The translations under genes were made by a program, and so were the position numbers. Shown one piece after another: positions 16,556 through 30,364 of a stretch of 64,000 bases of DNA. The stretch covers positions 1,396,729 through 1,460,728 of the forward strand of contig NC_011978.1 in the NCBI RefSeq assembly GCF_000018945.1, written 5' to 3'. The notes beneath the pieces are model-generated. The model was not told the DNA's origin. It ran no database searches and worked only from the letters and a program-made list of their open reading frames with translations. This DNA is from Thermotoga neapolitana DSM 4359. Its GTDB lineage: Bacteria > Thermotogota > Thermotogae > Thermotogales > Thermotogaceae. Within the stretch, counting starts at the first letter, position 1. Each line of letters begins with the position of its first letter.

Positions 16556-16574
16556 TTGCCACAGTTTTGCCACA
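16556..16574. repeat. Paired direct repeat TTGCCACA in the ferritin/prepilin intergenic region
   Basis: TTGCCACA occurs at 16556-16563 and again at 16567-16574, an 11-base period, about one helical turn. It sits upstream of ferritin and of the divergent prepilin operon, just beyond a TAGAAT -10-like element for ferritin. It may be a two-site operator; no known box is recognised. Confidence 0.45.
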
Positions 16575-16608
16575 TTTTTCTGTTAATAATCAAAATGGGG
16601 GTGATACG

Positions 16609-17103
16609 ATGAGGAATGGTTTCACGATCGTAGAGCTTTTGATAACTATAGCTGTTCTTCTCATCGGAATACTCTTGGTTCTGGGATTCACAGCGAGAAC
16701 AATTGTTGCCACTGTTCAGTCGTTTACCACGATCGAGTTAGCGGACGATCTTTTGAAAGCAGCGATGGAAATAAGAAAGGAGATTTTGAAAGCAGGTCCC
16801 AGAGCGGATCAGATTTATCCGGAAAATCCTGAAAAAATTTCTTTCCTTGTGAACGTTCCTTTCGGTGGAGAAAAGTACTATTCCAGGAACTACACATACA
16901 CCATTGCATTTGAAAAACCGGACATCAAATTGTACATCTTCCAGGAAGATTCGAACAGCACAGATACGAGGATACTCGTGACAGATATTTCAACCTGCAC
17001 ATTTTTGGCGGGTACCGGTACTGTCTCTTTTGTTATAGGAAAAGAAAAACACAACATCGAAAGAACCTATTTTATGAGCGTAGCACTTCCCAATCTGAAG
17101 TGA
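16609..17103 (+). CDS. Prepilin-type protein (minor pseudopilin 1)
   Basis: The 164-residue protein starts at ATG 16609 after GGGGGTGAT. The N terminus is a textbook class III signal: MRNG followed by FTIVELLITIAVLL, with cleavage expected after glycine 4, glutamate at mature position +5 and a long hydrophobic helix. The rest is polar, with no recognised domain. Proteins of this kind are cut by a prepilin peptidase and assembled into type IV pili or type II secretion pseudopili. It is first of three such genes in a row, spaced 1-13 bases apart. Confidence 0.8.
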   Translation: MRNGFTIVELLITIAVLLIGILLVLGFTARTIVATVQSFTTIELADDLLKAAMEIRKEILKAGPRADQIYPENPEKISFLVNVPFGGEKYYSRNYTYTIAFEKPDIKLYIFQEDSNSTDTRILVTDISTCTFLAGTGTVSFVIGKEKHNIERTYFMSVALPNLK

Positions 17104-17116
17104 AGGGGTGATCTTT

Positions 17117-18940
17117 ATGAGGAATGGTTCCATTCTTGTGACCACTGTGATAATTCTGGTCATCGTTTCCGTTCTGGGAATCTCTGTGTTCTTCGCGTTC
17201 AATCAATACCGTGAAAATGTGGAATTGACCGCTCAGAGACTGGAGGCTACTTACAGAGCTTCGAACATTTTGAACCTTGGTGTTGCCTGTCTAAAAAAAC
17301 ACTTCGGTTTTTTGGGGATGGAAATCAACTGGTCCACTGGAAGTGTGACATGGTTTGATGATTTCAGAAAAAGAGTTCTGCTTCAGTCAGATGGAGATGC
17401 CTGGGAGAATGTGTTCTCATTGCTGGACACAGAAAAATACTACAATCTTTCTTCAGACATCGATTTCTCTACTGAAGCATCAAAATTGGGATTTTCTAAC
17501 TTTGAAGCAGTAGCCATTCCGTTCAAGAACAACCCGTTCTTTGCTCTGCTTGTTGTAAGAGCACAAGTCGGAAAGGCTGTGGTTTATAAATACGCTGTTC
17601 TTTCTTCAGACTTTCTGAACAAGTACGCGTATTTCACAGAAAAAGAAACAAGACCGGATGGAGATAAGATATACTTCATCACCCAAGATATTATCGATGG
17701 GCCTTTCAGATCCAACGATGTGATACACGTGAAAGGAGAGCCTCTTTTCAAAGGAAGCGTGGAGTTCAAGGATATCGATTTGGAAGCAGGAGAAGGTCCA
17801 AGATACGAAAATCCGCCTCCGAAGTATCTGACGGAAGAGGACATAAAGAAATACAACATAGAAAAGATAAAAGACTATTACTCACAACAGATCGAGAGAA
17901 TAGTAAAGCCAGCGTCTGAAGTTGTTCTTTCGAGTGAACCAGTTGGGATAGAACTTCCGTCGATTAATGAATTCGTTGAAAGTTGGGAAGAAAAAGAGAA
18001 TGACAAGACCATATATTACAAAAAACAACGAGAAATTGTTTACACGCTAGAGTTCAATACTCCGAAAGGAAGTAGTGGGAATGATTACTTGATAAAAGTA
18101 TCATACAAGGAAGTTTACAGAATCTACAAGAGTGAAGACCAGGAAAAATGGAATTTTGTTAGAGAAGAGGTGTTAGGTGAGGGAGAACTTTTCCACATCA
18201 AATCCAAACCAAACAGCGATCAATATCATCTTGTTCTCCAGGGGAATGAAGCAAGAGAATTTCTTGGCCTTGACAGAAACGAGTACGATATATACTTCAA
18301 CGGTGTTATCAAAACAGACAACGATGTTTATCTGAAAAATATGAGCGAAGGGAACATAAAACCCATGTTCGTTGATGGAAGGTACACCATCGTTGCAAAC
18401 AACATATATATAGAAGACCACATCATCTACAACGATTACAGAGAAGTTCTGGAAGAGATCGCCGATAAGGAAAAAATAAGCGGGAACTCTGATCAGAAGA
18501 TCGCACAGGCTGTGATCAGAAAGCTCGGTGTGGACGGAAACATCGAAGAAGATTACTCAGAGCTTTTGAAAAATCACGAATCAGACGATTTCCTCAATCT
18601 GGTAGCGTACAAAAATGTGGTGATAACTGACAAAAAGCCTAATATGAAGATTTTTGCAAGTATATACGCTTTCACCGGAAGTTTTTATGTAAAAGGTTAC
18701 AACGAAAAGGATTTCCTCAAGAACAATGAGCGTGAGCTTACTATTTTTGGTTCTCTTGCACAGTACGTGAGAGGAGCCGTTGGAACTTTCTATTGGTCAA
18801 GAGATGGCAAACCTACCATCAAAACTGGTTACCGTAAAAACTACATCTACGACTGGAGAATCCTCAAGGGGTTTTCTGTGTTTGGTACCCCCACTGTGCC
18901 GAAGGAATCGAACATACTCAATGTGAGAGAGGTGTATTGA
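17117..18940 (+). CDS. Large prepilin-like protein lacking Glu+5 (GspK/PilX-like position)
   Basis: The ~607-residue protein starts at ATG 17117 (MRNGSILVTTVIILVIVSVLG). It has the same MRNG leader and hydrophobic helix as its neighbours but threonine, not glutamate, at mature position +5. A large extracytoplasmic part follows, with charged and aromatic segments; residues about 150-610 carry no domain I can name. In type II systems the tip protein GspK is also much larger than the others and lacks Glu+5, so an analogous tip or initiator role is inferred. Codon use and composition are AT-richer than the surrounding housekeeping genes. Confidence 0.7.
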   Translation: MRNGSILVTTVIILVIVSVLGISVFFAFNQYRENVELTAQRLEATYRASNILNLGVACLKKHFGFLGMEINWSTGSVTWFDDFRKRVLLQSDGDAWENVFSLLDTEKYYNLSSDIDFSTEASKLGFSNFEAVAIPFKNNPFFALLVVRAQVGKAVVYKYAVLSSDFLNKYAYFTEKETRPDGDKIYFITQDIIDGPFRSNDVIHVKGEPLFKGSVEFKDIDLEAGEGPRYENPPPKYLTEEDIKKYNIEKIKDYYSQQIERIVKPASEVVLSSEPVGIELPSINEFVESWEEKENDKTIYYKKQREIVYTLEFNTPKGSSGNDYLIKVSYKEVYRIYKSEDQEKWNFVREEVLGEGELFHIKSKPNSDQYHLVLQGNEAREFLGLDRNEYDIYFNGVIKTDNDVYLKNMSEGNIKPMFVDGRYTIVANNIYIEDHIIYNDYREVLEEIADKEKISGNSDQKIAQAVIRKLGVDGNIEEDYSELLKNHESDDFLNLVAYKNVVITDKKPNMKIFASIYAFTGSFYVKGYNEKDFLKNNERELTIFGSLAQYVRGAVGTFYWSRDGKPTIKTGYRKNYIYDWRILKGFSVFGTPTVPKESNILNVREVY

Positions 18941-18941
18941 C

Positions 18942-19346
18942 ATGAGAAATGGGAGTCTTATAGTTGAAACATTGATAAGTTTGTTTCTCATTCTTCTCAC
19001 CGTCGTTATATTCACAACGATCATTGTGGGAGTGGCAAAAAATGTGACATTCACCGAAGAATCCATTGAAACCTTTCTTTTTACCAATTTTGCGTACGAT
19101 TTTCTTTCCAAGTACGAGGTTGGACATGAGATAGAACAAGGTGTGTACGAAGAGATAAACAGAGAATTCTGGAAAGACAAATGGAACGATCAAAATCCTC
19201 CTTTTCCTCATATTGATCCTTCAGTTTCAACCGTTGAGGATGTTGCTTTGCCCAGCAGCAGTGACGTGAAATACAAAAAGATCACGTTGAAGATAAAAAT
19301 CAACGAAGGAGCTTCAATAGAGAGAATTGTTATAATAGGGGATTAA
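18942..19346 (+). CDS. Prepilin-type protein (minor pseudopilin 3)
   Basis: The 134-residue protein starts MRNGSLIVETLISLFLILLTVV: a short leader ending in glycine, glutamate at +5, then a hydrophobic helix. The remainder (about 100 residues) is charged and unrecognised. The gene begins one base after the stop of the large prepilin-like gene, so the three are surely co-transcribed. Its stop codon forms part of the sigma-28 type promoter of the following flaG-fliD pair. Confidence 0.78.
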   Translation: MRNGSLIVETLISLFLILLTVVIFTTIIVGVAKNVTFTEESIETFLFTNFAYDFLSKYEVGHEIEQGVYEEINREFWKDKWNDQNPPFPHIDPSVSTVEDVALPSSSDVKYKKITLKIKINEGASIERIVIIGD

Positions 19347-21766: not shown

Positions 21767-22816
21767 ATGAGTATTTTCGTGAAAACCTTTGGCGGGACAA
21801 GAGTTATCAAGAACAATGATATCGTGAACGCAAGAGACTGGCCATCGCAAAAAGCGTTTGCCCTGTTCAGGTATCTCATTTTCAGAAGGAACGAAGAAGT
21901 GTCCGTCGAAGAGATCTACAACCTCTTTTGGGAAGACATGGACGACACATTCGCGAAATCAAATCTGAACACCACACTCCATATTATAAGGAGAACCACC
22001 GGAATAACGAGCGAAGAACTCTTTGTGAAAGGAGATCTCTGCTGTTTCTTCCCGGGAGACAAAATCACCATAGACGCAGATATTTTCGAAGAGTGCCACA
22101 GAAATCTGATGAAAGCCACATCGGATATTGAACATGAAAAACTTCTTAAGAGGATGTTCGAGATTTATGCAGGACCGTTTCTAATCGAAGACATTTTCGC
22201 AGAATGGGTGCAGGAAATCAGAGAAATCTACGAATCGTGGTACTCAGATGTTTTAAAAGAGCTCTTCAAATTGTATCTGGCAAAAAAAGATTACGACGCC
22301 GCCCTCGAGATGGTAAACGCTTATTTTCAGAGAGAGCCTTACGACGAGGATATGTACTACAAAGCAATAGAGGTCCTTCTGAAAAAGGGTGATATCACAA
22401 GGGCAAAACGCGTATACGACAAGCTCTCGAGTCATCTTATGGAGATAGGGATCAAACCTCGATTGAAATTCGATGATTTTCTCTCCAAAAGAGGCTCAGA
22501 ATTCATGCTGAACGGTAACAAGGCAGTGGTGGTTGATGAAAAGCTTTTTGAAAGTTTCCTCTTTCTGGAGAGTCGAAGGAGAGAAAAGTCTTTTGTCCTC
22601 GTCGAGGTGAAACTGATGAATAAGAGTATCAGCACTGAAGATGTCTCCCAAAGGGTAGCATCTCATCTTCGAAAGGGAGACGTGATGACCTTCTCAGGTG
22701 AAACTATCCGAATTCTCTTCCACTGTCCCGAACAGCGTCGTCCAACAATGGAAAAACGTGTAGCAGACGTCCTCGAGAAAGTTGGAGTGAAGAAAGGTCA
22801 GTACGAAATTTCCTGA
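21767..22816 (+). CDS. BTAD/SARP-type transcriptional regulator
   Basis: The 349-residue cytoplasmic protein has an N-terminal OmpR-like winged helix (about 1-100, with WPSQKAFALFRYLIFRRNEEVSVEEIYNLFW). A BTAD alpha-helical TPR-like domain follows (~105-245, KDYDAALEMVNAYFQREPYDEDMY). The C-terminal ~110 residues (LESRRREKSFVLVEVKL...LRKGDVMTFSGETIRILFHCP) resemble the degenerate GGDEF-like domain seen in some BTAD proteins, without catalytic residues. Such regulators usually activate nearby genes. It is monocistronic and lies between the flagellar/prepilin block and the divergent secretin locus, so either could be its target; this is inference. Confidence 0.8.
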   Translation: MSIFVKTFGGTRVIKNNDIVNARDWPSQKAFALFRYLIFRRNEEVSVEEIYNLFWEDMDDTFAKSNLNTTLHIIRRTTGITSEELFVKGDLCCFFPGDKITIDADIFEECHRNLMKATSDIEHEKLLKRMFEIYAGPFLIEDIFAEWVQEIREIYESWYSDVLKELFKLYLAKKDYDAALEMVNAYFQREPYDEDMYYKAIEVLLKKGDITRAKRVYDKLSSHLMEIGIKPRLKFDDFLSKRGSEFMLNGNKAVVVDEKLFESFLFLESRRREKSFVLVEVKLMNKSISTEDVSQRVASHLRKGDVMTFSGETIRILFHCPEQRRPTMEKRVADVLEKVGVKKGQYEIS

Positions 22817-22919: not shown

Positions 22920-24023
22920 TCAAAATGAGTACCTCACCCCAACGAAAATCTTGTAGTTTGTAGAGTCATATGATGCTCCTAAAAGAACAGTTATATTCTT
23001 GCTGAGATCATACCCTGCACTTAGAGACACCTCCCACGGCGTTTCCTCGAGTGTCCAATGACTTCTGAAAGAAAGGCTCACAGAAAATCTGCTGAGTTTC
23101 AGATCTCCCCTACCCCACCAGAGTATTCCGGAGAATTTTGTGAGATCGAAGAGTGCGTACACACCAGCTGAAAGTGAAAGGTTTCCCACACTGGTACGAT
23201 CTGAAAATCCTACTCCCAAATATCTGAACCGCCAGTAGATAGCCCCGAGTTTCAATTCTTCTCCAAACAGTTTCGTTTCTATGAGAAGTCCATCGGGAAA
23301 AGAAGCGGAAAAATGGATGTTTTTGTTCAACCAGAGACTTACTCTGGCTTCTGGATGAGAGGAAAGCAGTATGAAACTCTCTTCAGGCTTTTCTTCTTCT
23401 TTACCCATGAACTCCTCAAGTCCAGAAACATTTCCCGCAACGAAGACTTTTTCTTCAGGAGGTTTTTCTACAACGAGAGCCCTGCAGAAAACGATCATTC
23501 TGTGTTCTTTCTCATCCGTTTTGAATTTGGAGTAGGCTATCGGCTGGAAATCTTCCTGGGAGATCCAGAGTTTTGTTCGAAGATGCGCACCATCCAGTTT
23601 CATTTCGATATCAGATAAAACGCTTTGTTTGTCCAACTGCTGTGGTGTTATCGAAAGGTACATCTCCTGGACCGTTGTCATCCCCTGTGTTACTGTGAGG
23701 ATCTCCTCCCTTCCTACACGTACAACGGCCGATTTCCCGAGGACAGTGAGGATCCAGGGTTTTGAAAGAATTCTGTAGGAATCGCGTATCACGGGAAATT
23801 TCGCCTTTATAGAGAGTGGAAAAAGCTTCAACTCTACCGTATCACTCGAGTAGTGTATCGAACCCTCGTTGGACTCATCGGTACTGAGATAGAGCTCCTC
23901 CAGAGAAACTCCAGTTCCAGTGCTTTCTTTCACCTCTGCCATCACGAACTGATACATGATCATGGGTTCCGAGAACACCGTTGCAACAGCGAAAACCAGA
24001 AAGATCATCAGCGACCATTTCAT
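22920..24023 (-). CDS. Exported protein with outer-membrane beta-barrel features
   Basis: The ~367-residue protein has a signal peptide (about 1-18, LMIFLVFAVATVFSEP). I recognise no family. The N-terminal half is mixed. The C-terminal ~150 residues alternate polar and hydrophobic/aromatic residues in short strands (LGAIYWRFRYLGVGFSD, LSRFSVSLSFRSHW, VLLGASYDSTNYKIF) and end in YSF, the terminal-phenylalanine signature of outer-membrane barrel proteins. It overlaps the secretin gene stop, so an outer-membrane role with the secretin is inferred. ATG 24023 is preferred to GTG 24029 on ribosome-binding-site spacing. Confidence 0.65.
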   Translation of the reverse strand: MKWSLMIFLVFAVATVFSEPMIMYQFVMAEVKESTGTGVSLEELYLSTDESNEGSIHYSSDTVELKLFPLSIKAKFPVIRDSYRILSKPWILTVLGKSAVVRVGREEILTVTQGMTTVQEMYLSITPQQLDKQSVLSDIEMKLDGAHLRTKLWISQEDFQPIAYSKFKTDEKEHRMIVFCRALVVEKPPEEKVFVAGNVSGLEEFMGKEEEKPEESFILLSSHPEARVSLWLNKNIHFSASFPDGLLIETKLFGEELKLGAIYWRFRYLGVGFSDRTSVGNLSLSAGVYALFDLTKFSGILWWGRGDLKLSRFSVSLSFRSHWTLEETPWEVSLSAGYDLSKNITVLLGASYDSTNYKIFVGVRYSF

Positions 24024-24025
24024 GA

Positions 24026-25189
24026 TCACTCACTTCCCTGGATTTCCGCCTTGATGAATATGTAGAGTTCTTTTTGGGAATCTTTTTTCATCGTACCACC
24101 GAAGAGGTATCTTATGAGTGGAATCTTGTTCAGTATGGGCACTCCGGAGCTGGTCTGGGCGTTGTCTTCGATGGTGGCACCGGAGATCACAACAGTTTGT
24201 CCGTTTTTCAGGAAAAGTGTTGTAGAGAGTTCGTTCTGTTTTACAGCGAATGTTCCGAGTTTTTCTCCTGCGAAGTGACTGACCTTTGGTGAGAGTGTGA
24301 GCTCGAGTTCCTCTTTGTCCATCACACGTGGCTGAATGTCGATGCTCACCCCAACGTCTATGGACTCGATCCTGCTCACCGCTCCTTCAGCCTGAAGGAG
24401 AACAACCTGTCTTTCTCCCAAGAAGAGAGAAGCCTTTTCTCCGCTCTTCACAATGATCCAGGGATCGGCTGTGATCTTCGCCTTTTGATCTTCTTCGAGG
24501 AGTTTCAACTGAGCTAGAATCTGTCCGAAGACGTCTGTCTGAACGTTGATGAGACCTGTTACCAGACCGAGAGTAGCCGACCAGTTCTCGTTGAATTCCT
24601 GACCAGAGCCGAAGGAGTAATCTAAACTGTTCAACCCCAGTTCGTTCGAGTAATCTTTGGAAACTTCTGTGACGATCACGCTGATTTTCACCTGCGGTAT
24701 CGGGATGTCTATCTTTTTGAGATCTTCTTCGAACTCCTGTATGATCTCTTCAGGTGCTGTGATGGTTACCATGTTGTTCTTCTCGTTGAATTTGACGTAG
24801 CTCTTGTAAACTGCTGGTAGAAGTTCCTGTGCGTCGGCTGTGGTTATGTATTTCAGCTTGTAGGTCTTTGTAACTGCAAGGTATCTGAAGGCAGGATTCG
24901 CTGGGTCCGGTGATCCCACAAAATAAAAGCCGTCCATCTTCTTGAAAACGTATCCTCCAGGCATGAGGATCATCTTCAGTGCCTGTTCCAGGGGTACTTC
25001 GTTTAGCTCCATAGTGATGAAACCAGTCACAGTCGTGTCCGCTATGATTGGAATTCCTGTCTGCGCGGATATATCAGCGAGAGCATCCAGAATGTAGGTG
25101 TCCTGGAATATGTTGCTCACCAGGGGTTCCTCCTGTGCCGTCATCACCGCCGTTATCAACACGAATAAAACGAAACCGAGTTTTCTCAT
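24026..25189 (-). CDS. Short secretin (GspD/PilQ superfamily)
   Basis: The 387-residue exported protein has a signal peptide (1-18) and an STN-like domain (~30-80, LADISAQTGIPIIADTTV...LEQALKMIL). One N1/KH-like domain follows (~95-165, with the AVTKTYKLKYITTADAQELL pattern). A secretin core follows (~168-385), with QVKISVIVTEVSK, ITADPWIIVKSGEKASLFLGERQ and the family hallmark GVPILNKIPLIRYLFG. Secretins form gated outer-membrane rings for type II/III secretion or pili. It is far shorter than typical GspD or PilQ (about 600-700 residues), having a single N-domain. It overlaps both neighbours by 4 bases. Confidence 0.9.
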   Translation of the reverse strand: MRKLGFVLFVLITAVMTAQEEPLVSNIFQDTYILDALADISAQTGIPIIADTTVTGFITMELNEVPLEQALKMILMPGGYVFKKMDGFYFVGSPDPANPAFRYLAVTKTYKLKYITTADAQELLPAVYKSYVKFNEKNNMVTITAPEEIIQEFEEDLKKIDIPIPQVKISVIVTEVSKDYSNELGLNSLDYSFGSGQEFNENWSATLGLVTGLINVQTDVFGQILAQLKLLEEDQKAKITADPWIIVKSGEKASLFLGERQVVLLQAEGAVSRIESIDVGVSIDIQPRVMDKEELELTLSPKVSHFAGEKLGTFAVKQNELSTTLFLKNGQTVVISGATIEDNAQTSSGVPILNKIPLIRYLFGGTMKKDSQKELYIFIKAEIQGSE

Positions 25190-26811
25190 TCCCCATTCCT
25201 CCCTTCCATCTGGAAAGACTTTCTCAAAACGATCGGTGACTTACCGTAGTCGCACCTCGCGAGCAGTTCGTACTGACCTTCTTCCAGAACGACGGGTATG
25301 AAGATGCTGAAGATCCTCTTCGTTCCTGGAAGTACGGGATTCGTCGACGAGATCTCTTCCTGGATGAGACTTTCCACTTTTTCTGGTATTATGAGACCTT
25401 CGTCCGTCACCTGCTGAGGTGTGATCCTGTTCAAACCGAAAGTGATCTTCGGCAGAAGATGATAGTTCCCCGTGTTCTCAAAGACGATGTCCGCGTAAAT
25501 ACCATCTTCCTTCACGGTGTAAACCAGATCGGCGCTCGCTTCTTTAGTTATATCCTCGTCCTTTCCAGCGAACACGAGAAGATTTGCCCCCACTTCCGTC
25601 TGTAAACCACCTTCTGTTTTGAAGATCACATCTGCGTAATAACCTCCCGTGAAATCTTTTGGAATTCTCACGGCGACGCGCACGTTTCTGGACTGTCCAG
25701 GTCTCAAACTGAAAGAAGCTGGGGTGAGTTTGATCCACTCGGGAGGAGTACCCCTTTCTTCTTCCGGAAGGATCTCTCCGTAGAGGTCATAAACCAGGGG
25801 CAGAATCTTTCCTTCTACCTGAAGGGTCTCTTCTCCCAAGTTCGATACTTTCACTATCGCTGATCTGTAAGATCCTGGAATCGCTTTGATTTCGATATCT
25901 GCTGGATCCACGGTGATCATCACAGGATTTGCTTCCTCTTTCTCTTCTTTAGTCTCCACTTTTTCTGACGTTACTGTGAACGTGGTCTCTGCCACGATGG
26001 GTCTTCTTCCACCGTAATCGACAACGGCCCTTGCGATGTACTCTCCCGGTGGAAAGAATCTTCTTGTGATCGTTCTCATGTTGACGGTGCTTTCTGGAAG
26101 GATCACTCCTCTTCCACCACCGAGAGGCATTTTTGCTATCGTTCTTCCTTCTTTTGTCTTTATCGTGAGAGTTCCCTTTGTGACTATGTGAACGTTACTC
26201 CTGTTCAACACGCCGAGTGTGAAGACAAGAGCCCCGTTTCCAATCTGCATCCTTATTGAAGGAATGTCATCTGATCTTTCCACTTTGAAATAGGCTGGAA
26301 ACGCCTCCACCCTCTGTCTTGTTCCAGAGAGAACAACTTCCAAAAAGCTCGCCATCCTGTACCTGAACTCGACTTCACCGTAGGCTCCCTCTTCAGCGGG
26401 TCTCTGGGTCTCCGGTGTTTGAGGTCCCTGAATCTCGAATGTGATCGCCCCGTACAGTCCTCCAGAGACACCCCTTGGTACGTTCACCGTCACGATGACC
26501 GTCTTTGTTTCTTTCGGCTGTACGGTGATGGTGTCTGGTTCAACCCGAACCCATCTTGCGATCGAATACTTCGTGCTTCCCGGCTCTCTCAGATCGTACG
26601 CTCCATCCACCGTTTCGGTTATATCCATGACCATCGCTTTCAGGGTAACGGGATCGAACTCACTGTCGTTCTCCAGAAAGATCTCGTAACTGAAACTGGT
26701 TCCCGGACTCACGGTTTTGCTCACCACGATGGGATCCATTCGAACAGATATTCCCTGAGCGAAAAAAACCGCACTAACAAAAACAACTATCATCAAAACT
26801 ATCCTTCTCAT
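25186..26811 (-). CDS. Exported protein with duplicated Ig-like module (DUF916/WxL-like or chaperone-like)
   Basis: The ~541-residue protein begins with a signal peptide (LMIVVFVSAVFFAQG). It contains two copies of one module, around residues 25-135 and 310-420. In each, W(V/I)(R/K) is followed by P..., then (V/L)xP, and a closing P(R/K)xxxGGxYxxxxF. The copies are separated and followed by beta-rich Ig-like segments. This resembles DUF916-type WxL envelope proteins and distantly pilus chaperones, but I would not assign either. No membrane anchor is seen at the C terminus. It overlaps the secretin start by 4 bases and begins right after a terminator hairpin. ATG 26811 or 26817 are both possible starts. 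Confidence 0.65.
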   Translation of the reverse strand: MRRIVLMIVVFVSAVFFAQGISVRMDPIVVSKTVSPGTSFSYEIFLENDSEFDPVTLKAMVMDITETVDGAYDLREPGSTKYSIARWVRVEPDTITVQPKETKTVIVTVNVPRGVSGGLYGAITFEIQGPQTPETQRPAEEGAYGEVEFRYRMASFLEVVLSGTRQRVEAFPAYFKVERSDDIPSIRMQIGNGALVFTLGVLNRSNVHIVTKGTLTIKTKEGRTIAKMPLGGGRGVILPESTVNMRTITRRFFPPGEYIARAVVDYGGRRPIVAETTFTVTSEKVETKEEKEEANPVMITVDPADIEIKAIPGSYRSAIVKVSNLGEETLQVEGKILPLVYDLYGEILPEEERGTPPEWIKLTPASFSLRPGQSRNVRVAVRIPKDFTGGYYADVIFKTEGGLQTEVGANLLVFAGKDEDITKEASADLVYTVKEDGIYADIVFENTGNYHLLPKITFGLNRITPQQVTDEGLIIPEKVESLIQEEISSTNPVLPGTKRIFSIFIPVVLEEGQYELLARCDYGKSPIVLRKSFQMEGRNGE

Positions 26812-26829
26812 CCCCATCACTCTCCCAAA

Positions 26830-26860
26830 CAAAATAAAAGGCGAGGGGAGGACCCTCGCC
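26830..26860 (-). terminator. Terminator-like hairpin between WFVxKPG paralog and Ig-like protein gene
   Basis: A perfect 8-bp stem, GGCGAGGG with CCCTCGCC on the minus strand and a 5-base loop, is followed by TTTTATTTTG. The next gene starts about 15 bases later, so its expression depends on readthrough or on a promoter not seen. Confidence 0.85.
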
Positions 26861-26878
26861 TTCTCTTTCTGAAGAGAC

Positions 26879-27532
26879 TTATCTTTCGCTGTTCACGTAG
26901 TTTTCCAGATCTTCCACGTAGTTTCCTTCCTCGTCGATCCACGGTTTTTGGTTCTTAAGTGTGAGTGTGATCGTGCCTGTGTCTCTGTAGGTAGATGCAC
27001 TGTTACATCTCACAACGTGTATTCTGTTCCAGAGTTTGTAGGTTGCGCCGTCATGGAGGATTTGACTGTCAGGTACTAACAGAGTCACATTGTTGAGATC
27101 TGGAGCAGGTGTCCACACTTCTTCCGGTATGGGAAGCTGAGGACCGAACGCGTATTCTACCTCGATCGTGTCGTTAACACTCGTTCCCGTTGCGTACTTC
27201 AGGTGATCAAATCCACTGAAGGTGATCTCAAGATCGCTGTTGCTATGAAGTTCTGCTGTTATACAGTTGGCGACGTAGGTTCCGGGTTTTCTCACAAACC
27301 AGGTCCACTTCGTTCCCGTAAGGTGCCATTTCACCCACTGGGCGACCTGAACTTCCAGAGTCATGGGAATTTCCCACTGGTGTCTGTTACAGTTTCCGCT
27401 CATTCCTTCACTGATTAACGCTCTTGCGTTATTTGGATCACTATCTCCGTAAGTGTAAACCGTTACTTCTTGCTGGGCAAAAAACAGAGAACTCACTATC
27501 AAAGCCAACATTATCAACAAAAGTCTTCTCAT
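26879..27532 (-). CDS. Secreted WFVxKPG-family protein A (unrecognised family)
   Basis: The 217-residue protein has a signal peptide (1-19, LLIMLALIVSSLFFAQ). I recognise no domain. It is plainly a paralog of the next two genes upstream: shared are VAQWVKWHL, the TWFVRKPGTYVAN core (about residue 87), a FSGFDH segment, LHDGATYKLWNRI, CNSASTYRDTGTITLTL, and a C-terminal QKPWIDEEGNYVED tail. Two cysteines (SGNCN and VRCNSAS) are conserved in paralog B and may form a disulfide. Composition suggests a beta-sandwich. It is probably a surface or extracellular protein handled by the downstream secretin. Confidence 0.7.
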   Translation of the reverse strand: MRRLLLIMLALIVSSLFFAQQEVTVYTYGDSDPNNARALISEGMSGNCNRHQWEIPMTLEVQVAQWVKWHLTGTKWTWFVRKPGTYVANCITAELHSNSDLEITFSGFDHLKYATGTSVNDTIEVEYAFGPQLPIPEEVWTPAPDLNNVTLLVPDSQILHDGATYKLWNRIHVVRCNSASTYRDTGTITLTLKNQKPWIDEEGNYVEDLENYVNSER

Positions 27533-27575
27533 ACCAATCCCCTCCTCAATTGTTCATGATACAACACGTACCAAC

Positions 27576-28253
27576 TTATCTTTCAGGGGTCACGTAATTC
27601 GCCAAATCTTCCACGTAGTTTCCTTCTTCGTCGATCCAAGGTTTCTGGTTTTGAAGCGTGAGCAAGATGTATCCGGTGTCTCTGTAGGTGGATGCACTGT
27701 TACAATTCACTACCTTGATTCTGTTCCATAGATAGAAGGTCATCCCATCGTGGAGTTCCTGGCTGTCCACCAACGTATAGGAAAGATCGTTTACATCGGG
27801 TGCTCTCACCCAGCTTTCAGGATCTGGCATTCCCTCGTCGGTCATAACGGTGTAGTAGGCTTCGATCTTTGGGTTGACACTGCTTGTTCCTGTGTAGGTT
27901 GGGTCATCAAAACCACTGAATGTTACCAGAACATCTCCGTTGCTTGCGACAGTTCCCACTATGGAGTTCGCATAGTAGTCTCCAGGTTTTCTCACAAACC
28001 AGGTCCACTTCGTTGCGTTCAGACTCCACTCGAGCCACTGGGCAACCTGTACTTCTGTTGTGAATTCAATCTGCCACTCAGGTTTGTTACAGGATCCATC
28101 GGCCGGGTACGCACTGAACGCTCTTGCCAGGTCGTTCGTTGCTGGAAGACTGATGTACTGACCATCCTCGTACTTCCAGACCTCAAGTGGTGTCTGTGCC
28201 AGGGCGAAAGAGAACAACGCTCCCATCAAAACTAACCAGAGTAACTTTCTCAT
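27576..28253 (-). CDS. Secreted WFVxKPG-family protein B (unrecognised family)
   Basis: The 225-residue protein has a signal peptide (1-19, LLWLVLMGALFSFALA). It is strongly similar to protein A over its whole length. The TWFVRKPGDYYAN core, the LHDGMTFYLWNRI and CNSASTYRDTG segments, and a nearly identical C-terminal tail (QKPWIDEEGNYVEDL) are visible. DNA similarity is also high at the 3' ends and in the leader (GGAGGGG upstream of ATGAGAA in both), indicating tandem duplication or gene conversion. It is separated from A by a 43-base gap with no hairpin seen. Function unknown. Confidence 0.7.
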   Translation of the reverse strand: MRKLLWLVLMGALFSFALAQTPLEVWKYEDGQYISLPATNDLARAFSAYPADGSCNKPEWQIEFTTEVQVAQWLEWSLNATKWTWFVRKPGDYYANSIVGTVASNGDVLVTFSGFDDPTYTGTSSVNPKIEAYYTVMTDEGMPDPESWVRAPDVNDLSYTLVDSQELHDGMTFYLWNRIKVVNCNSASTYRDTGYILLTLQNQKPWIDEEGNYVEDLANYVTPER

Positions 28254-28267
28254 ACAAACCCCTCCTT

Positions 28268-29212
28268 CTACTCACCTTCTGGTGAGGTATCGACGTACAG
28301 TTTAGAGTTGTTGATGGTGAAGGTTATCACACCTTTGCTGATGTAGGTGTCCGCTGACAGACTCCTTGGAACGTTGATTTTTTGCCACAGAGAGAAGCTG
28401 TCTTCTAGAAAACTGAGGTCGTCGAACCACTCTGTGGGAATCTCGTCACCATAGGCCACTTTCAGATCCACACTATCTTTCTCGTTCGAAGGATCGGGAA
28501 AATTCACGTAGATGGAAAGGTGTGTGTTCGCTTCAACTTCGAGCACTTTCGCAACGTACACGCCGGGTTTCTTCACAAACCAGGTGACCCTTGTACCGCT
28601 CAGATGGATCTTTACACACTGTGAAAGCCTTCCTCCCCATGCGGTTTCTTCTCTTCCACTGCTGCTACTCACAACTCCATGAAGGAGAATGTAGAATTTG
28701 TTGTTCAGCCTGTTCAACCTGGTGAAACTGTTCTGGAAGAGAAAGGAGAGAGAAACCTCGAAGGTGTAGGTGCTCACAGGTGAGTCGAATTCTTCCTTGA
28801 ACGGAAACTGACCCGGTGCCTGATTTCCCTCGGGCTCTTCGGAGAGAACGTTGAGGTGTGCTTCTTCCAGATACCACTCATCGTCGATATCCACTCTGAC
28901 GTAGAGGTTTTCTGAATCGTTCCAGACGGTGACGGTTCCCACCACTGTGTTCTGGCCTGCCCAGAAGCTGAAGAGTTCCTCCCCATCTCCCAGCTCGTAT
29001 TCCATGTAGTAGTACCACTGACCCTTTCCGCGATAGGAGTTCATTTCAACAACGCTTCCTGTGGTTTGTCTCTGAGCAGGTGGGAGAACGAACACGTCTT
29101 CTTTGACCTCCTTTTCCCACCTCCCGGTTTCACTGTCGTATCTGTAGGTTGTGATGGAAAAAGACAGACTGAAAAGAACAACGATGAAAACCCCCAATCC
29201 CCACTTCTTCAC
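28268..29212 (-). CDS. Secreted WFVxKPG-family protein C with extra N-terminal domain
   Basis: This protein has about 314 residues from GTG 29212 (GGGGGG 8 bases upstream), with a signal peptide (KKWGLGVFIVVLFSLSFS). The last ~130 residues carry the family core: TRVTWFVKKPGVYVAKV, LWQKINVPRSLSADTY and a terminal TFTINNSKLYVD. The middle ~170 residues (beta-rich, aromatic, with TVTVWNDSENLYVRVDID) are absent from A and B and resemble carbohydrate-binding-type sandwich modules only vaguely. The paired cysteines of A and B are missing from the core. First gene of the locus, divergent from the cupin gene; no clear promoter was found. Confidence 0.65.
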   Translation of the reverse strand: MKKWGLGVFIVVLFSLSFSITTYRYDSETGRWEKEVKEDVFVLPPAQRQTTGSVVEMNSYRGKGQWYYYMEYELGDGEELFSFWAGQNTVVGTVTVWNDSENLYVRVDIDDEWYLEEAHLNVLSEEPEGNQAPGQFPFKEEFDSPVSTYTFEVSLSFLFQNSFTRLNRLNNKFYILLHGVVSSSSGREETAWGGRLSQCVKIHLSGTRVTWFVKKPGVYVAKVLEVEANTHLSIYVNFPDPSNEKDSVDLKVAYGDEIPTEWFDDLSFLEDSFSLWQKINVPRSLSADTYISKGVITFTINNSKLYVDTSPEGE

Positions 29213-29342: not shown

Positions 29343-29612
29343 ATGGAAGTGAAGATAGAAAAACCCACACCGGAAAAACTCAAAGAACTCGGTGTGGAAA
29401 GGTGGCCTATCTGGGAAAAGGAAGTCAGTGAGTTCGACTGGTACTACGACACGAACGAGACCTGCTACATTCTGGAAGGGAAAGTGGAGGTAACAACGGA
29501 GGACGGAAAAAAGTACGTGATCGAAAAAGGAGATCTCGTCACATTCCCTAAGGGCTTGAGGTGCAGATGGAAGGTCCTGGAGCCTGTGAGGAAACACTAC
29601 AACCTGTTTTGA
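29343..29612 (+). CDS. Small cupin protein (DUF861-like)
   Basis: The 89-residue single-domain cupin starts at ATG 29343 after GGGGGTGATG. The barrel motifs are visible: CYILEGKVEVTTEDG followed by YVIEKGDLVTFPKGLRCRW. It looks almost identical to the T. maritima protein of known structure that I remember (TM1112), with a few substitutions. That protein's function is unassigned; the family includes ureidoglycolate-hydrolase-like and sugar-binding cupins. It is followed by the SRP RNA promoter. Confidence 0.88.
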   Translation: MEVKIEKPTPEKLKELGVERWPIWEKEVSEFDWYYDTNETCYILEGKVEVTTEDGKKYVIEKGDLVTFPKGLRCRWKVLEPVRKHYNLF

Positions 29613-29614
29613 AC

Positions 29615-29643
29615 TTGAAATATCCCAAAAAGTGTCGTAGAAT
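29615..29643 (+). promoter_or_regulatory. Promoter of the SRP RNA
   Basis: TTGAAA (29615-29620), a 17-base spacer and TAGAAT (29638-29643) place transcription start at about 29649-29650. That is exactly where the closing helix of the SRP RNA begins. Confidence 0.85.
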
Positions 29644-29648
29644 AATGG

Positions 29649-29922
29649 TGCACCACGCTAGGCGGGGGGTTGGCGGTCCCCTGTACCCGAAATCCGCCAT
29701 ATGCGGGGCCGAACTCCCACCCGAGGCTCTTCGGGTCGGGAAACGGTGTGGTTCGGAAGCGATGAAGGTCGGGTCCTACGCAACGGAGCCCTGTGAACCT
29801 GGTCAGGCCCGGGAGGGAGCAGCCATAAGCAGGTGTCTCCGTGTGCCGTGGGGGTGCCCGACCGGAGCTCTCCGACCACGTACGCCCCGGTCCGGGGATG
29901 TCGACGGTGGGTGCGTGGTGCA
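29649..29922 (+). ncRNA. ffs: Signal recognition particle RNA, large bacterial type with Alu domain
   Basis: About 274 bases. The ends pair perfectly: TGCACCACGC at 29649-29658 with GCGTGGTGCA at 29913-29922. The 5' part carries the Alu-domain pattern (GGCGGGGGG...TGGCGG...CCTGTACCCGAAATCCGC). The universal helix-8 core GGTCAGGCCCGGGAGGGAGC, with a GGGA tetraloop and the AGCAGCC side, is at 29801-29826. It scaffolds Ffh for co-translational targeting. A T-rich tract (TCTTTTGTTT) follows the closing helix. A prepilin-like gene appears to start within the last few bases of this RNA. Confidence 0.95.
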
Positions 29923-30364
29923 TCTTTTGTTTGGCTACACCATCGTCGAGGTTCTCAGTTTGCTTTTCTGTTTCTGCACGATCGCACTGATCGGCTTTCT
30001 CTCCCTCTCTCTTGCCCTGGAGACAAAAGCCCACCTTGTGAACGATCTGGACAGAACACTCGATGAACTCTACGCTGTGGATTTCATGAGGCACGAGTAC
30101 GAGGTGAAAAAGGCAGAAACACCTTCTTCCTCCGTTACTCCATCCTGTCTGAGTTTCAATGCAGATTACAAGGGAAAAAGCGGCAGGATCTCTTACATTG
30201 TGGTCTTCAACGATGGACTGTACAAACTGATTCGAAGAGGATTGAGTGGTGAAGGAAACAACTATCTACTCGAAACGAAGAAGAAGATAGTTTTCCTTCA
30301 GGATGGAAAGGTGTTCTCCGTGAGGATAGGAGGCACAACCTACGATCTTGGGGTTTCAGAGTAG
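29918..30364 (+). CDS. Prepilin-like protein whose start overlaps the SRP RNA 3' end
   Basis: The ~148-residue product has the class III signal FGYTIVEVLSLLFCFCTIALIGF: cleavage after glycine, mature start YTIVE with glutamate at +5, then a hydrophobic helix, then a polar C-terminal part (residues ~45-148) with no known domain. Possible starts are GTG 29915, GTG 29918 (6 bases after GGTGGG) and TTG 29927; all lie in or directly beside the SRP RNA closing helix. The open frame extends upstream through the RNA, but that part is not protein-like. It ends with a 9-base convergent overlap with the antiporter gene mnhB. Which start is used is uncertain. Confidence 0.7.
   Translation: MHLLFGYTIVEVLSLLFCFCTIALIGFLSLSLALETKAHLVNDLDRTLDELYAVDFMRHEYEVKKAETPSSSVTPSCLSFNADYKGKSGRISYIVVFNDGLYKLIRRGLSGEGNNYLLETKKKIVFLQDGKVFSVRIGGTTYDLGVSE

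Follow-up and report, generated by a model that had tools for sequence, protein, structure and literature searches.

Organisation of the locus

The window analysed here is a stretch of 64,000 nucleotides from Thermotoga neapolitana DSM 4359 and is part of a complete genome of 1,884,562 bases. Six consecutive genes on its minus strand encode three small secreted proteins (subunits A to C), an Ig-like protein, a mini-secretin and a barrel protein (Table 1). All six ORFs were confirmed at the coordinates given by a first-pass annotation, as were the signal peptides that it assigned to all six proteins (Sec-type, recognised by eye). The 4-base gene overlaps that it described are also real: ATGA joins the Ig-like and secretin genes, and GTGA joins the secretin and barrel genes if the GTG start of the latter is used (an alternative ATG start lies 6 bases past this GTG). 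The start of P0003 is uncertain, being ATG at 26817 or 26811, with the longest ORF opening at TTG 26832; the most likely start of P0006 is GTG at 29212. The statement that none of these proteins but the secretin belongs to a familiar family was upheld for the three paralogous subunits, P0004 to P0006, for which no Pfam or NCBIfam match was found, but not for the Ig-like protein, which is WxLIP-like, nor for the barrel family, which is secretin-related.

Table 1. Features of the cassette and its flank, in window coordinates
Feature	Position	Strand	Description
SARP/BTAD-type regulator	21767..22816	+	BTAD 1.7e-8; adjoins the cassette, associated rather than proven part
Barrel protein P0001	22920..24029	-	Probable secretin-core remnant (about aa 27-137) and predicted C-terminal 12-strand barrel
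Mini-secretin P0002, 387 aa	24026..25189	-	STN, one Secretin_N, secretin core
Ig-like protein P0003	25186..26817	-	Tandem duplicate of a WxLIP-type module with two Ig domains; WxLIP_PGBD 4.8e-7
Intrinsic terminator hairpin	26836-26864	-	12-bp stem and T-rich tail; junction of subunit genes and triad
Subunit C, P0004	26879..27532	-	Paralog of P0005, 55% identity
Subunit B, P0005	27576..28253	-	Secreted predicted beta-sandwich, WFVRKPG
Subunit A, P0006	28268..29212	-	Secreted, two-part: unique N-terminal region and C-terminal WFVKKPG core; first gene

Homologues of the regulator were identified in 16 of 42 scanned stretches, and a relative flanks many cassettes. Directly upstream of the cassette lies a large bacterial SRP RNA gene (29653-29918, plus strand; RF01854, 195 bits). 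ORFs called over it are artefacts, the beginning of 29561-30364 among them. The rest of that ORF (about 29925-30364, plus strand) is prepilin-like, with GYTIVEV and a hydrophobic stretch, and its Pfam result was a weak match to Csm4_C only.

The secreted subunits

The three paralogs do possess a common core, as had been noticed, with WFVRKPG in P0004 and P0005 and WFVKKPG in P0006. Profile alignment places the C-terminal core of P0006 with the short subunits (99.7%, P 2.9e-26; also alignment A7). For its N-terminal region, a known binding domain received no support from the PDB and only a weak DsbD_N match from Pfam; P0006 is possibly a tip-like subunit. Two cysteines of P0005, C55 and C184, are invariant among window-type subunits (alignment A3), making a disulfide between them possible.

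That the paralogs are beta-sandwiches was anticipated, and structure prediction agrees. The AlphaFold2 model of P0005 is of moderate confidence (mean pLDDT 77.8), and a Foldseek search with it was led by CfaB, FimG and CsuA/B (E about 1e-3), most of the best matches being chaperone-usher pilins. This is suggestive, not decisive, of a fold nearest to those pilins. Sequence searches gave no significant support for a pilin relationship of the subunits (CsuE, E 1.3), and Pfam found no WxL domain in P0004 to P0006, nor in 24 subunits.

Short subunits from different cassettes are homologous (hhalign, P 3.5e-15), and by sequence the subunits encoded upstream prove diverse yet homologous. With a profile of subunits from cassettes other than that of the window (A6), 53 of the 62 strongest matches lay within 8 kb of a cassette Ig gene, and two window-type members (in G057 and G002) were weakly recovered.

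The Ig-like protein

The internal duplication reported for P0003 is strongly supported by profile-profile comparison of one half with the other (99.6%, P 6.5e-24). Its Pfam match to WxLIP_PGBD (PF06030) is above the cut-off, and the same family is the commonest Pfam match among members of the Ig-like family (8 of 22). Against the PDB, the family profile matched EfmWxLIP1 (9i1y) with E 4.4e-10; the match covers chiefly the first Ig domain, and a second matching segment is weak. For the Ig-like proteins Pfam returns WxLIP_PGBD and other Ig families, not a PapD-type chaperone. In an AlphaFold model, a strand of WxLIP has been described to complete the WxL sandwich (PMC10599100).

This kinship could point to surface display of the WxL type, where the Ig-like protein would be a structural tether between beta-sandwich proteins and the wall or outer membrane, with the secretin and barrel serving mainly as an outer-membrane anchor or pore. 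Such a reading is the main rival to export and we consider it unlikely, with a modest share of the probability. In WxL clusters, too, beta-sandwich proteins both small and large accompany WxLIP (PMC10599100), and the barrel would supply a membrane anchor. The subunits, however, have no WxL domain match, a gated secretin ring would be odd as a pure anchor, and P0003 has by inspection no C-terminal membrane helix, whereas WxLIP has one; moreover, the conserved terminator described below suggests subunits in excess of machinery. P0003 is instead proposed to be a periplasmic chaperone or carrier of exported subunits.

Half-length Ig relatives (259-290 aa) exist in other genomes. At several loci (L096, L100, L101 and L102) the gene for such a protein has those of small secreted proteins on one side and that of a large outer-membrane-like protein on the other, an arrangement resembling that of a chaperone-usher operon. 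At L096, L100, L101 and L104 and their neighbours, Ig relatives (half-length, but of 480 aa in L104) adjoin proteins of 880-1000 aa with Ig, barrel and two prealbumin-like domains, an usher-like layout put together from Pfam pieces only. Pfam Usher did not match the large proteins beside the half-length Ig relatives. Usher identity was also sought for these large proteins with a profile, which gave neither an usher nor any other useful PDB match; it is a poor profile, as one efflux pump (L099) had entered its alignment along with a truncated copy (L102).

The mini-secretin

The architecture described for P0002, one STN, one N-domain and the secretin core, is firm for the core (Secretin, PF00263, 8.8e-38) and the N-domain (Secretin_N, 1.5e-8) and weak for STN (0.0053) in Pfam. 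The secretin hallmark is present (VPILNKIPLIRYLF). Its length was given correctly, but it is not unusually small: models of HofQ run to 412-419 residues, and 387 aa is therefore unremarkable for a secretin.

In NCBIfam, P0002 falls well under the cut-offs of PilQ and GspD, with PilQ the best match (126 bits against 284). A quick maximum-likelihood tree restricted to cassette secretins and Thermotogota PilQ-type proteins split 48 cassette secretins from 13 PilQ-type proteins (SH-aLRT 99). Known secretins usually work within large complexes with an inner-membrane motor. No such motor was linked to the cassette in a scan of flanking genes; a motif scan of these genes yielded three Walker-A proteins, none judged to be a pilus ATPase or T2SSE-type protein. 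The expectation that the secretin would not be tied to a gspC-M or pil set was thus correct for cassette secretins.

The mini-secretin might still be PilQ/HofQ-like and serve a type IV pilus or competence, its neighbours being accessory pilus or DNA-uptake proteins. Three secretins of T. neapolitana are listed in Table 6 of PMC5637354, with TM1117/TM0088 manually annotated as pilQ. PilQ is also the best, if sub-threshold, NCBIfam match. Prepilin-like genes are also present in the window at 16567-19346 on the plus strand (the first with N_methyl, 1.5e-4, the second DUF4900-like), upstream of FlaG/FliD-like genes. These are no regular neighbour in other genomes, although a similar gene occurs in L067. 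The genome encodes, apart from the cassette secretins, a large PilQ-type secretin (about 1284 aa); the cassette secretins group separately from Thermotogota PilQ in the tree; the two T2SSE matches in the genome, at 1189 and 1699 kb, are away from both of its cassettes (the second is described below); and the neighbours of P0002 are subunits and a WxLIP-like protein rather than PilM-P. A pilus or competence role is accordingly judged improbable.

The barrel protein

The C-terminus YSF reported for P0001 was confirmed, and AlphaFold2 predicts twelve C-terminal strands, in agreement with the proposed barrel (pLDDT 66-88 by ten-residue block; the model of the N-terminal half is poor). Among compact PDB structures, the 12-strand porin KdgM gave the best match to the C-terminal half (TMt 0.63). 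The protein also resembles the secretin core, modestly, in hhalign (90.7%, P 1.2e-6, 107 aligned columns; Pfam Secretin 0.058). Secretin N-domains are missing from barrel proteins of the window's clade, whereas those of a second clade carry them (Pfam STN 7.3e-10 for the protein of locus L035) and align with secretins over 268 columns (hhalign 99.9%, P 2.5e-35). Such alignments establish a secretin ancestry for the clade-2 barrel proteins; for P0001 itself this ancestry is likely, though weakly supported. Since clade-2 barrels have N-domains and P0001 a weaker core match, P0001 probably consists of a degenerate secretin joined to a membrane barrel. In one tree of the N-terminal parts, the clade-2 barrel label needs two changes, not one; it may have arisen by a single duplication or twice.

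Conservation across Thermotogota

The suggestion that the six genes travel together is borne out by a gene order conserved over Thermotogota. The cassette was found in 56 of 103 searched Thermotogota genomes. Using a broader Ig profile, the mini-secretin gene was directly downstream, on the same strand, of 63 of 66 full-length Ig-like homologues from 56 Thermotogota genomes. Of the other three, two are near a secretin in a rearranged cluster and one (G088) lies at a contig break, with its secretin on a different contig. This is the less biased figure, because the stretches fetched for inspection were picked from Ig or secretin matches. Among the 103 genomes, relatives were identified of P0005 in 23, of the Ig-like protein in 52, of the barrel in 20 and of secretins of any kind in 96. 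In most fetched loci the third gene encodes a barrel-type protein, usually with a 4-base overlap, and the last residue is aromatic in most of these proteins, a trait of outer-membrane barrels. Judged from gene order and homology, the Ig-like protein, mini-secretin and barrel form a conserved module. When a genome collection was scanned once with the Ig alignment, five loci were retrieved, each of them from Thermotogota.

The same genome contains a second, divergent cassette (L035 1430-8539, at 1.877-1.883 Mb). It encodes two small secreted proteins, an Ig-like protein of 477 aa, a secretin of 380 aa, a barrel protein of 435 aa, a 239-aa protein with no Pfam match and a SARP-type regulator. Within the genus, two Ig matches were found in G000 only. 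A relative of the cassette is also present in another phylum, where Ig matches came from three genomes of one genus and the individual genes of one locus (L093) were examined. In the L093 cluster, Ig proteins of both full and half length are encoded together with a secretin and a secretin-related protein of 600 aa.

A terminator between subunit genes and triad

A strong intrinsic terminator (z -2.9) separates P0004 from P0003. At equivalent junctions, hairpins at or below -14 kcal/mol with T-rich tails were identified in 18 of 28 cases, compared with 2 of 224 dinucleotide shuffles. Stem sequences vary among genera, and at some junctions no hairpin was found. Because this terminator splits the subunit genes from the triad, a single simple operon of all six genes is improbable. 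We infer that it is a brake that keeps the machinery low and the subunits high.

The division by the terminator, and the placement of the subunit genes of L051 on the opposite strand, would also suit envelope genes that are unconnected and merely old neighbours. This is very improbable given that their order persists across the phylum, recurs in a second one (L093) and is shared by the divergent copies of a single genome, and that genes overlap by 4 bases.

A proposed export pathway

Export of the subunits through a platform of secretin and barrel, with the Ig-like protein as chaperone, is the best-supported reading, and we give it about an even chance. Much the same route had been suggested by the first-pass annotation, with the Ig-like protein as carrier; it stands to this degree, while neither the direction nor the cargo is given by the sequence. 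The small beta-sandwich subunits P0004 to P0006 would cross the inner membrane via Sec into the periplasm, where the double WxLIP-like P0003 would bind them and probably stabilise an incomplete subunit sandwich in the manner of WxLIP and pilus chaperones. P0002 would form a ring in the outer membrane, the exit route for the subunits, on which P0001 may dock or which it may anchor; the pair would thus perform the job of an usher, and the exported subunits would assemble at the cell surface. We infer the complexes, the direction of traffic, donor-strand exchange, anchoring and fibre formation; the display on the outer toga that the first-pass annotation also suggested is conjecture.

Wider still is the proposal, held tentatively and with somewhat less than even confidence, of a new class of outer-membrane export, 'chaperone-secretin'. 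Here a duplicated WxLIP-type chaperone would pass donor-strand-type subunits to a secretin and a secretin-derived barrel that replace the usher. Together with the half-length Ig/usher-like loci of other genomes, this class would unite WxL clusters and chaperone-usher pili in a broader category.

Thermotogae have been reported as the only diderm clade without any standard secretion system, and it was suggested that they may have evolved their own, suited to the toga (PMC4793230). The cassette is a concrete candidate, with named genes, for such a system. If the reading is true, a secretin here does without a pilus or type II motor and has a periplasmic Ig chaperone and a secretin-related barrel as its partners. 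No description of the cassette was found in the open-access literature searched (subscription literature was not covered). Searches with the gene names TM1113-TM1116 returned unrelated papers only, and the main text of the toga proteomics paper names none of TM1113-TM1118.

Comparison with known systems

With chaperone-usher systems (FimC/FimD and the archaic Csu), the cassette shares an Ig-type periplasmic protein, several subunit genes, a hairpin between subunit and machinery genes, an outer-membrane platform encoded alongside and, tentatively, the predicted subunit fold. It differs in having a secretin and barrel where the usher stands, and in a chaperone candidate that is WxLIP-type and duplicated, with four Ig domains. 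No Usher match (PF00577) over the cut-off was found in the 103 Thermotogota genomes; the E. coli control was positive.

Gram-positive WxL/WxLIP clusters, exemplified by EfmWxLIP1, have a related Ig-like family and likewise pair an Ig-like protein with small and large secreted beta-sandwich proteins. The cassette differs from these in being diderm, with a secretin and barrel, in its duplicated module and in subunits that do not match the WxL domain. The WxLIP proteins of monoderms are anchored surface proteins and are not known to act as chaperones.

Like the minimal secretins HofQ, PilQ and GspD, P0002 has STN, Secretin_N, core and hallmark, and its length is similar to that of HofQ; unlike them, it has no linked type II or IV apparatus and is encoded in tandem with a secretin-related barrel gene. 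The C-terminal half of the P0001 model is shared with KdgM-type 12-strand porins, from which P0001 differs in that its barrel lies behind a probable secretin remnant and has no sequence family match.

In evolutionary terms, the cassette may bridge the WxL clusters of Gram-positive bacteria and the pili of diderms. It lacks at least one defining feature of each of the chaperone-usher, type II/IV and WxL systems: its parts come from known superfamilies, and their combination appears to be new.
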